A DNA stretch of 64,000 bases from Thiohalobacter sp. GTDB taxonomy: Bacteria; Pseudomonadota; Gammaproteobacteria; DSM-19610. Both the position numbers and the translations under genes were made by a program. The stretch lies in NCBI GenBank assembly GCA_026984515.1, contig JALSRZ010000059.1, forward strand, positions 1 to 64,000, in the 5' to 3' direction. Shown one piece after another: positions 40,734 to 45,131 of the stretch (within the stretch, counting starts at the first letter, position 1; each line of letters opens with the position of its first letter). The notes under the pieces were generated by a model. It did not search any database and was not told where the DNA came from. It saw only the letters and a list, made by a program, of their open reading frames with translations.

Positions 40734-43319
40734 ATGGCCATTGAAAAAGACCCGGTGTGCGGTATGGAGGTCGATCCGGCATCTGCTGCGGCACAGGAAG
40801 AATACCAGGAAAAGACCTGGTATTTCTGCTCCGAACACTGTCACAGCAAGTTTCAGGAAGAACCCGGCCGCTACACACAGCTCACTGAACTGAAGGACCC
40901 GGTATGCGGTATGACCGTGTCGGCAGACTCGGAACACCACTCAACACTCAACGGGAAGGAGTACTACTTCTGCAGCAGTTCCTGCCTGGGGAAATTCACG
41001 GCCAACCCGAACCAGTATACCGGGGCAACCACATCGCCGCCGATTGAGAAAACTTCAGCCGCCATTTGCCCTGACGGCAGCTGCAACATCGATGACACCC
41101 TCTATACCTGCCCCATGCACCCCGAGATCGAACAGAAAGGGCCGGGGAGCTGTCCGAAATGCGGCATGGCGCTGGAACCGAAAAGTGTCCCCCTGGTGGC
41201 CACCAGGACCGAGTACACCTGCCCCATGCACCCGGAAATCGTCCAGGAGGAACCCGGCAGCTGCCCAAAATGCGGCATGGCGCTCGAACCCCGCACCGTG
41301 GAAGCGGAGGAAGATACCAGCGAACTCGATTACATGACACGCCATTTCCGGGTCAGCACTTTTCTGGCGGTGCCGGTATTTCTCAGCGCCATGGCTGCCG
41401 AATTCTGGCCGGACGCCATGGCGGAAATCATCCACCCGCGTTATCGACAATGGTTTGAAATGATACTTGCCACACCGGTCGTGGTCTGGGGCGGCTGGAT
41501 TTTCTATGTACGCGCCTGGCAGTCGCTGGTAACACGCAACCTCAACATGTTCACCCTGATCGGCCTGGGTGTAAGTGTAGCCTGGATTTACAGTATGGTT
41601 GGCGTTCTGCTGCCCGGACTGTTCCCGGCATCGGTATTCAACAAGTTCGGCGTAGTACCGGTTTATTTCGAAGCGGCGGCCGTCATTACCGCGCTGGTAT
41701 TGCTGGGCCAGGTACTGGAGCTGCGCGCCCGCAGCCAGACCAACGCGGCCATAAAAATGCTGCTGGGACTCGCTCCCAAGACCGCGCGTATCGTCCGGGA
41801 AGACGGTAGCGAAGAAGACATCCCGATGGAGCATGTCAAGCCGGGCGACATCCTGCGCGTCCGCCCGGGTGAAAAAATCCCCGTAGATGGAACCGTCATC
41901 GAAGGCGAAAGCAACGTGGATGAATCCATGGTTACCGGGGAACCCCTGCCGGTAGAAAAATCCACCGGTGCAAAACTGATTGGCGCCACGGTCAATGGCA
42001 CCGGCAGTCTGCTGATGAAAGCAGAAAAAGTCGGCGCTGACACCCTGCTGTCACAGATCGTACAGATGGTGGCGGACGCACAACGCTCGCGGGCACCGAT
42101 CCAGAAACTGGTGGATATCGTCGCCGGCTATTTTGTACCCGTTGTTGTACTGGTGGCGATCATCACCTTCATTGTCTGGAGTATCCGGGGTCCCGAGCCG
42201 GCGCTGGCCTATGCCATCATCAACTCGGTCGCGGTATTGATCATTGCCTGCCCCTGTGCGCTGGGTCTGGCCACCCCCATGTCCATCATGGTAGGCACCG
42301 GCAAGGGCGCAATGCTGGGTGTACTGATCAAGAATGCCGAAGCGCTGGAGGTCATGGAGAAGGTCGATACACTGGTGGTCGACAAGACCGGCACCCTTAC
42401 CGAGGGCAAGCCAAAACTGGTGACTGTCATCGCGACACCGGATTTTGAAGAACAGGAAACACTGCGTCTTGCCGCCAGCCTGGAGCGCGCCAGCGAACAC
42501 CCGCTGGCGGAAGCCATTGTACGCGGAGCCGGCGAACGCGGCGTCGAACCGGTCAGGGCGGATGAATTCCAGTCGGTAACCGGCAAGGGAGTAACGGGTG
42601 CTGTGGAAGGTCACACTGTCGCACTGGGCAACCTCAGGCTGCTGGAAAGCCTGGGTATCGATGCCGGCGACCTGCCCCGCCAGGCGGATGCCCTGCGCGC
42701 CGATGGCCAGACCGTGATGCTGCTGGCCATTGACGGTAAAGCCGCCGGCCTGATCGGCGTGGCCGACCCCATCAAGGACTCCACCCCTGAAGCCATTCGC
42801 GACCTGCACAGCGAAGGCATACAGGTCGTTATGCTCACCGGCGACAGCCGGAAAACCGCCGAGGCCGTCGCGGCAAAGCTGCACATCGACCAGGTGCAGG
42901 CGGAAGTGTTGCCCGACCAGAAGGCCGAGGTGGTCAAGGCATTGCAGGCGGACGGACGAACCGTGGCCATGGCCGGTGACGGGATCAACGACGCACCCGC
43001 CCTGGCCCAGGCCCACGTCGGCATCGCCATGGGTACCGGGACCGATGTCGCTATGGAAAGCGCCGGGGTCACGCTGGTCAAGGGCGACCTGCGCGGCATT
43101 GTCCGGGCACGGCGCCTGAGCCGTGCCACCATGCGCAATATTCGCCAGAACCTGTTTTTCGCCTTTGTGTACAACTCGGTCGGCGTGCCGATCGCTGCCG
43201 GTGTACTGTACCCGGTATTCGGGTTGCTGCTGTCACCGATTATTGCGGCGGCCGCCATGAGTTTCAGCTCGGTATCGGTAATCACTAATGCTCTGCGTCT
43301 GCGCAGGGCAAAAATCTAG
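40734..43319 (+). CDS. Copper-type P1B ATPase with four N-terminal metal-binding modules (YHS-YHS-HMBD-HMBD)
   Basis: [11 protein letters not shown]...[18 protein letters not shown]...YYFCSSSC; two [22 protein letters not shown] units; [34 protein letters not shown]. Confidence 0.95.
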
Positions 43320-43328
43320 GGAGGCCGT

Positions 43329-43565
43329 ATGATGGGCGACAGTGGCAACATGCTTTCAGGGGGCGGGTTGTTCATGTGGTTATTCTGGCTCCTGCTGATC
43401 GTAATCATTGTGGCCGTCGCGAGAGCGCTGGTCGGCAACCGTTCGGCAACCGGCCCGGCTGCGGGAGGAAGCCCGTTAGAAATACTGCAAAAACGCTATG
43501 CACGCGGTGAAATCGATGAACAGGAGTTCAAACGCAGACGCCGCGAACTCAAAAGTCAACCCTGA
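43329..43565 (+). CDS. SHOCT-domain small membrane protein
   Basis: One TM helix (FMWLFWLLLIVIIVAVARALV), then SPLEILQKRYARGEIDEQEFKRRRREL. Confidence 0.85.
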   Translation: MMGDSGNMLSGGGLFMWLFWLLLIVIIVAVARALVGNRSATGPAAGGSPLEILQKRYARGEIDEQEFKRRRRELKSQP

Positions 43566-43677
43566 ATTTTTACGAGCGACTGCGCTCGCTTTCCAGGCGG
43601 CTGCCGCACACGGACACCACTACGCCGTGACCGGAAAAACGGCTGCTGCTTTACTCCAACCACGAGGACTTGTTTAA

Positions 43678-43992
43678 ATGAACGGAAAAAGCCTTTACAC
43701 AAAAACCACACTGCTCACAGGTTCCCTGCTGATGCTGGCCAGCGGGTTGCCAATCAGCGCGAATTGCGCTGAAAATCCTTTTGTCATAACCGACCTGCCT
43801 TCCGGCTACCAGCTGGCCCATAAAGGACAGGAAGACACCCCGGCGAAAGATGATAAAAATGAACCCGTCAGAAGCAAAAAACACCACGGGGATGAAAAAG
43901 AAAACCGCGGCCATGACAGCAAATCCCAGGAAGGAAAATGTGGTGCAAGTCACATGAAAGAAAATGAAGGGAAGTGTGGCGGCATGAAATGA
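43678..43992 (+). CDS. HvfA/bufferin-like precursor peptide with EGKCG motifs
   Basis: Signal peptide LLTGSLLMLASGLPISANCA; ENPFVITDLPSGYQLAHKG; SQEGKCGASHMKENEGKCGGMK at the C-terminus. Confidence 0.72.
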   Translation: MNGKSLYTKTTLLTGSLLMLASGLPISANCAENPFVITDLPSGYQLAHKGQEDTPAKDDKNEPVRSKKHHGDEKENRGHDSKSQEGKCGASHMKENEGKCGGMK

Positions 43993-44134
43993 ATGGCACT
44001 AAGCTAAGCCCAAAAGCCCTGTCATTGCAAGGAACGCAGTGACGTGGCAATCCCTGAATGATGAAGATATCGTCATGAGATTGCCGCGCTACGCTCACAA
44101 TGACGGCTATTTTTACTTAACTTTAGTGCCATTC
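43991..44134. repeat. Small TIR-bounded element (144 bp)
   Basis: Perfect 12-bp terminal inverted repeats GAATGGCACTAA (43991-44002) and TTAGTGCCATTC (44123-44134), enclosing an inverted GTCATTGC...CAATGAC core. Confidence 0.75.
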
Positions 44135-44207: not shown

Positions 44208-45131
44208 ATGAATAAAATTACTATTGTCGGCTGTGGCCGGGTCGGCGAATCGACGGCACAGATCCTGGCCAAGGAAGAGTTGTGCCGGGAGATACTCCTT
44301 CTGGATGTACAGCCGGGTGTACCTGAAGGCGTAGCACTGGACCTGCAACAGTCCGGTTCCCTGCTGCGCTTCGACACCCGGGTAAGCGGCGCGACCGACC
44401 CCGCCGCCATGTCCGGATCGGAACTGGTCATTGTCACCGCGGGCTTTCCACGCAAACCGGGCATGTCGCGCTCGGATGTGCTGGATTCGAACCTGGCCAT
44501 TATCGACACGATTGTCGACAACACCCTGCACCATGCGCCTGAGGCCATGCTGATGATGGTCACCAACCCGGTCGACGTACTGACCTGGCGCGCCTGGCAA
44601 CGCACCGGCTGGCCACGGCAACGCGTATTCGGCCAGTCCGGCGCGCTGGATACCGCCCGCATGGCCAGCTTCATCGCTGCAGAGACGGGGTACTCGGTAA
44701 AGGATATTTCCGCCCTGGTACTGGGCGGCCATGGCGACGCCATGGTTCCGCTGGCGCGCTTTACCGATATCGCCGGCATCCCCATCGAACACTTCCTGGA
44801 TGACACGGCGATCCGCAGGATTGCCGAGCGCACACGCCAGGGCGGCGGTGAGATACTGGCACTGAAAAAGCACAGCAGCGCCTACGACTCCCCTGCTGCA
44901 GCCATTGCCTCCATGGTCGATGCCATCAGCCACAACCGCCGTCGCATCCTGCCCTGCGTGGCCATACTGGATGGCGAATACGAACAGCACGCCACGGCTA
45001 TGGGTGTGCCTGCAGTGCTGGACCGGAACGGCCTGGTGGACATTGTAGAGCTGAAACTGAGCCGGGAGGAACGGGACGATTTCGAGCGTTCCGCCGCGCT
45101 GGTACGTGCGGATATCGACCACTTGACATGA
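44208..45131 (+). CDS. Malate/lactate dehydrogenase family protein (malate dehydrogenase probable)
   Basis: MNKITIVGCGRVGESTAQILA, VTAGFPRKPGMSRSDVL, NPVDVLTWRAWQRTG, VFGQSGALDTARM, LGGHGDAMVPL. Confidence 0.9.
   Translation: MNKITIVGCGRVGESTAQILAKEELCREILLLDVQPGVPEGVALDLQQSGSLLRFDTRVSGATDPAAMSGSELVIVTAGFPRKPGMSRSDVLDSNLAIIDTIVDNTLHHAPEAMLMMVTNPVDVLTWRAWQRTGWPRQRVFGQSGALDTARMASFIAAETGYSVKDISALVLGGHGDAMVPLARFTDIAGIPIEHFLDDTAIRRIAERTRQGGGEILALKKHSSAYDSPAAAIASMVDAISHNRRRILPCVAILDGEYEQHATAMGVPAVLDRNGLVDIVELKLSREERDDFERSAALVRADIDHLT

Follow-up and report, generated by a model that had tools for sequence, protein, structure and literature searches.

A stand-alone two-Cys HvfA-type precursor in Thiohalobacter sp., probably modified in trans by HvfBC

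One gene in the window, the 64,000-nucleotide stretch of a Thiohalobacter sp. contig (JALSRZ010000059.1) analyzed here, encodes a small two-Cys relative of the copper-binding HvfA (oxazolin) precursors that is predicted to be exported. Its product is best read as an oxazolin-type precursor in which HvfBC probably installs two copper-binding thiooxazoles in trans; the copper reading derives from the family to which the peptide is assigned. The initial annotation had described the gene as an orphan with neither a DUF692 nor a DUF2063 partner next to it. This description is correct locally, as no modifying enzymes are adjacent, but not genome-wide, as one complete hvf locus is present on another contig (C131). 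That locus largely resolves the puzzle of the absent enzymes.

Architecture of the precursor gene

The features of the locus and its surroundings are as follows (strand in brackets where assigned).

40734..43319 (+): P1B ATPase of the CopA type, its N-terminal part containing two YHS and two HMBD domains (TIGR01511, 608.8 bits, cut-off 397)
43329..43565 (+): small membrane protein with a SHOCT domain, immediately behind copA (domain search)
43664..43668 (+): GAGGA, putative ribosome-binding-like site 9 nt upstream of the ATG (sequence reading)
43678..43992 (+): gene for a 104-aa stand-alone precursor of the HvfA/oxazolin type with two EGKCG motifs (ORF, NF050137 match, HvfA alignment, relatives)
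43678..43770 (+): signal-peptide-like N-terminus (Sec), residues 1-31, with a predicted cleavage site (inspection and alignment with relatives)
43774..43821 (+): NPFVITDLPSGYQLAH, the conserved leader motif NPF-x5-L-x2-GY, residues 33-48 (alignment, pattern search)
43822..43929 (+): variable charged linker, residues 49-84 (composition count)
43930..43980 (+): core unit EGKCGASHMKENEGKCG, residues 85-101 (NF050137, alignment; also inside MNIO-linked precursors)
43991..44134: element outside the system, MITE-like, whose terminal inverted repeats are GAATGGCACTAAG / CTTTAGTGCCATTC (sequence comparison)
44208-45131: malate/lactate dehydrogenase family protein, downstream neighbor of the precursor

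The ORF starts with ATG and is bounded exactly by 43678 and 43992 on the + strand, and the 104-residue length, signal-peptide-like start, charged linker, and two EGKCG motifs initially attributed to it are all present. By inspection, its N-terminus has the composition typical of a Sec signal peptide, with a Lys-containing n-region, the hydrophobic stretch TLLTGSLLMLASGLP, and small residues, and is separated from the linker by ENPFVITDLPSGYQLA. The linker consists of 58% D/E/K/R/H and includes 3 His. The protein contains two EGKCG motifs in total, with Cys88 and Cys100 as the candidates for modification. A third and last Cys (Cys30) is located at the inferred end of the signal peptide and is missing from the relatives in the alignment.

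Membership in the HvfA family

The C-terminal unit scores 22.5 bits against NF050137, the NCBIfam HvfA-family domain model, and surpasses its curated cut-off of 19.5; the ORF is therefore not a chance product. The full-length HvfA equivalog model, NF050188, is failed (13.7 bits against 95), but since the operon-linked HvfA of the same genome likewise fails it (29 bits), this model seems too restrictive to settle whether a protein belongs to the family and is set aside. The precursor and the operon-encoded HvfA are 32% identical over the whole length (E 7e-14) and have AENPF..T.LPSGY in common, and the leader segment is also found in MNIO-linked precursors, both family-wide and class-wide.

No Pfam family matches the precursor at E<=1. 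Identity with the bufferin Buf1 (DUF2282, four conserved Cys) is rejected on the basis of this result and of the Cys count, which is three with one in the signal-peptide region. The resemblance to HvfA or bufferins initially proposed, for which a profile comparison had been suggested, thus holds for HvfA, through NF050137 and the alignment, but not for bufferins proper, as DUF2282 gives no match. Adjacency to MNIO or DUF2063 genes is absent at the precursor locus, where the neighbors are copA, SHOCT, and mdh. Such adjacency is not strictly defining, since members can be stand-alone according to a published survey (PMC12452194).

Modifying enzymes encoded elsewhere in the genome

The genome, rated 99.99% complete, was searched for DUF692 and DUF2063 genes, a step already proposed in the initial annotation, and yields one hvfA-hvfB-hvfC-doxX locus on contig C131, in the gene row nth, DUF1841 gene, hvfA, hvfB, hvfC, and doxX. 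HvfB and HvfC exceed their NCBIfam equivalog cut-offs (455 bits vs 360 and 327 bits vs 142, respectively). The hvfB gene is the sole match to PF05114 (DUF692/MNIO) in the genome, and hvfC is the sole DUF2063 match above cut-off. The operon hvfA encodes 126 aa with seven KCG motifs. Because the genome has one complete hvf locus, whose precursor bears the same leader, modification in trans is now the clearly favored reading among the three options originally left side by side (unmodified, modified in trans, or served by an unrecognized enzyme).

Across 229 genomes of the class, MNIO genes are found in 66 of the 67 that encode EGKCG proteins vs 78 of the 162 that do not (Fisher p 1.5e-15, a value that ignores kinship), a comparison that covers EGKCG proteins in general and not the two-Cys subtype. 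The sole EGKCG-bearing genome with no detected MNIO is G155, whose repeats could be those of an unrelated protein. Within the family, co-occurrence carries no weight for the subtype because nearly all genomes (19/20) have MNIO.

The leader motif

A DNA pattern for NPF-x5-L-x2-GY, which provides a test independent of the EGKCG motif, was scanned in the 20 genomes of the family; the order-level search gave the same 20 genomes. All 32 matches are in frame in EGKCG-type precursors, while the reversed pattern, used as a control, has 0 matches in these genomes. Exactly two of the matches belong to the present genome, namely hvfA and the stand-alone precursor. On comparing contigs and coordinates with MNIO positions, about half of the 32 adjoin an MNIO gene and the rest do not. 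The same segment is found in MNIO-linked EGKCG precursors of many other families of the class as well as in most class EGKCG precursors that have no MNIO in the flank examined.

As a conserved feature of enzyme-linked precursors beyond the signal peptide, this segment could serve as a recognition element; it is positioned after the inferred cleavage site. The HvfA signal sequence functions as a leader, and its removal strongly reduced modification (PMC13419390), which indicates that the signal peptide itself matters. FonBC, in turn, tolerated single Ala changes upstream of the core (PMC12668002), and the NPF motif is for this reason not a proven recognition site.

Carriers of the leader in the family include operon HvfA, the two-Cys subtype, a four-Cys type with EAVCGIYQIGSSHKDP that neighbors a DUF302 gene, and EF-hand fusions, and they are mostly unlinked to MNIO. 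The four-Cys type, a second MNIO-unlinked precursor kind, is represented by L031:5414-5752 (G004), L034:1829-2161 (G013), L035 (G012), L080 (G019), and L024 (G003, altered leader) and has a conserved EAVCGIYQIGSSHKDPxKVKDGKCGGHKVVEALCGG-like segment. The DUF302-family gene stands beside it in G004, a gene resembling this one does so in G012, G013, and G019, and an NCBIfam scan of the G004 copy returned 0 matches at E<=0.01. The EF-hand fusions L081 (G015), L082 (G010), L083 (G007), L084 (G006), and L114 (G016) likewise carry this leader and lack a neighboring MNIO gene.

The two-Cys subtype in relatives

Five subtype members were aligned, comprising the stand-alone precursor, one protein each from G005 and G007, and two from G003. 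They share 24 invariant columns, with the leader and core being kept and the linker diverging. A sixth member is encoded on MAG contig JAJRUG010000150.1 and a seventh in G140, a single-contig genome of another family. In every member the leader is followed by GYQ[LV]AH, the linker varies, and the C-terminus carries EG[KR]CGxxHMKx[NR]EGKCG. No MNIO gene was found in the DNA examined around the seven members from the two families; in G140, MNIO (600849) and the subtype gene (about 1476000) are 875 kb apart. Some of the members outside G140 lie on short contigs or close to a contig end, so that the lack of linkage is less firm there.

The unit EGKCGxxHMKxxEGKCG is also present inside precursors of MNIO-containing loci (the G019 HvfA at L104, and L173) and is thus a sequence that enzyme-linked precursors already use. 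The hvf loci at L078:7974-9057, L173, and L174 have two tandem precursor genes ahead of MNIO, and the core unit of the stand-alone precursor recurs as EGKCGAGHMKSNEGKCGAMK at the end of the first L078 precursor. In the leader and core blocks, dN is well below dS for most member pairs (Nei-Gojobori), an estimate biased by the choice of blocks for their conservation and in which many dS values are saturated.

Genomic neighborhood

The neighbors initially named, a CopA-type ATPase, a SHOCT protein, and a malate dehydrogenase, are those found at the locus. The "copper island" to which the gene had been assigned is real insofar as CopA is a neighbor, but a close relative (G006, HvfB 96% identical) has mdh right behind copA-SHOCT, at a distance of about 60 bp, and subtype members elsewhere have different neighbor genes. 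The slot between SHOCT and mdh holds a phospholipase-D-like gene in G003, and another small gene follows SHOCT in G010. Owing to this variability and to the other contexts of subtype members, the copper-island argument should carry little weight. Inheritance of the island as a conserved feature is ruled out by the variable slot, and the place of the precursor beside copA is lineage-specific.

A promoter common to the precursor and hvfA or copA was considered and rejected, with only 6-9 base matches. No sigma-70-like site was found on the + strand of the 112-bp gap upstream of the precursor, and the sole + strand terminator-like site in the region examined falls inside the precursor ORF. The MITE-like element opens inside the precursor stop codon, such that the GA of TGA constitutes its first two bases; the genome has two further near-full-length copies of it, and relatives contain many partial matches. 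Elsewhere in the window, the gene for a P-II-like protein (PF00543, 38897-39220) stands in line with those for a MerR regulator, a glutaredoxin-like protein, and a CopA-type ATPase, which is an unusual setting for a protein of the nitrogen-regulator family.

Proposed mechanism and alternatives

It is likely, on the sequence evidence, that the gene is a stand-alone HvfA paralogue (Buf_EGKCG/oxazolin, captophorin class) whose product is modified in trans by HvfBC and acts as a periplasmic Cu(I) ligand. The predicted steps are recognition in trans, thiooxazole formation, export, and copper binding. The signal peptide and NPF-x5-L-x2-GY segment would be recognized by the HvfC partner and the HvfB iron enzyme, both supplied from the single hvf locus on the other contig. 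HvfBC would then convert Cys88 and Cys100 to 5-thiooxazoles, with an expected change of -8 Da, and the peptide would be exported by Sec and act beside the 7-Cys HvfA as a small periplasmic ligand that contains His and has two sites for Cu(I).

The oxazolin modification was first called oxazolone/thioamide, the chemistry quoted in the initial annotation, and has since been reassigned to 5-thiooxazole, while the loss of 4 Da per Cys is unchanged (PMC12668002, PMC13419390). FonBC fully modifies a substrate that has only two Cys, with a change of -8 Da (PMC12668002), and MmrBC does likewise (PMC12538549). In these minimal substrates the Cys are 5 residues apart (PMC12668002, PMC12538549), vs a Cys88-Cys100 spacing of 12 residues, which counts against the HvfBC reading. 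The variable CopA neighborhood, the lack of a promoter element in common with hvfA, and the position of the NPF motif beyond the inferred cleavage site count against it as well.

An exported metal-binding HvfA descendant that is no longer modified, and that coordinates Cu(I) or other metals directly through two free thiols, five His, and two Met, is an unlikely alternative given what the subtype conserves. The presence of only two Cys, the invariant His-Met pair in the core, the charged linker with some His, and the lack of an enzyme gene nearby all agree with such a protein. However, the leader motif, which is unneeded for export alone, is kept in all members found, the Cys still stand in the Cys-Gly context that the enzyme prefers, and MNIO is present in 5/5 subtype genomes checked. 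It is very improbable that the gene is a functionless, degenerating hvfA duplicate. The locus has been disturbed, as evidenced by the MITE-like element that begins inside the stop codon, and the gene is missing at this place in the close relative; yet the frame is open, a ribosome-binding-like site is present, the leader and core show the low dN relative to dS noted above (with its bias), and the same architecture recurs in two families. Least credible is a different, unrecognized modifying enzyme near copA, for which no supporting evidence was found among the neighbors (a P-type ATPase, a SHOCT protein, and a dehydrogenase), since the neighbors differ in relatives and no conserved candidate enzyme therefore travels with the gene, and since HvfBC of the same genome is a sufficient candidate.

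Relation to known systems

The precursor resembles HvfA/oxazolin and the Buf_EGKCG (captophorin) peptides FonA, NgoA, and MmrA, as far as the sources describe them (PMC12452194, PMC12668002, PMC12538549, PMC13419390), in its signal-peptide-like N-terminus and EGKCG motifs. It also has the NPF-x5-L-x2-GY leader in common with the operon-linked precursors examined, and HvfBC is encoded in its genome. Unlike these peptides, it is encoded outside the hvf operon, its two EGKCG motifs are 12 residues apart in one conserved C-terminal unit, and a long charged linker, not tandem repeats, extends from leader to core.

A 2025 study of the MNIO landscape (PMC12452194) reports sizeable proportions of Buf1 and Buf2 precursors that are unlinked to MNIO genes, and the legend to its Fig. 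3 covers stand-alone precursor genes, with panels that include Buf_EGKCG. These genes are like the present one in having no adjacent MNIO gene. The passages of that study cited here describe neither a two-Cys charged-linker subtype nor a test of trans modification. Stand-alone EGKCG precursors are hence already published, and the two-Cys charged-linker form is, relative to those passages, a distinct new subtype with a candidate trans enzyme.

The published Buf_EGKCG|EF-hand_5 fusions, which the EF-hand proteins listed above resemble, share the leader motif and have no adjacent MNIO in several relatives, but they carry Ca-binding EF-hand repeats, of which the stand-alone precursor has none. Prochlorosins and ProcM, as presented in PMC10783134, are similar by analogy only, in that one enzyme acts on several precursors, whereas their enzymes, precursors, and chemistry are unrelated to the HvfBC system.

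Implications

The chances are about even that one HvfBC pair serves dispersed precursors, with a shared address tag leading to several metal-binding products that are separately placed and regulated. The leader motif is a cheap way to find such precursors, being 32/32 specific in this family, and the precursor, with only two candidate Cys, would be a convenient natural substrate for studies of HvfC recognition and Cys-spacing limits. If HvfBC does modify the precursor in trans, mining only beside DUF692 genes would miss substrates, and the copper peptides of such bacteria would not be defined by operon neighborhood.
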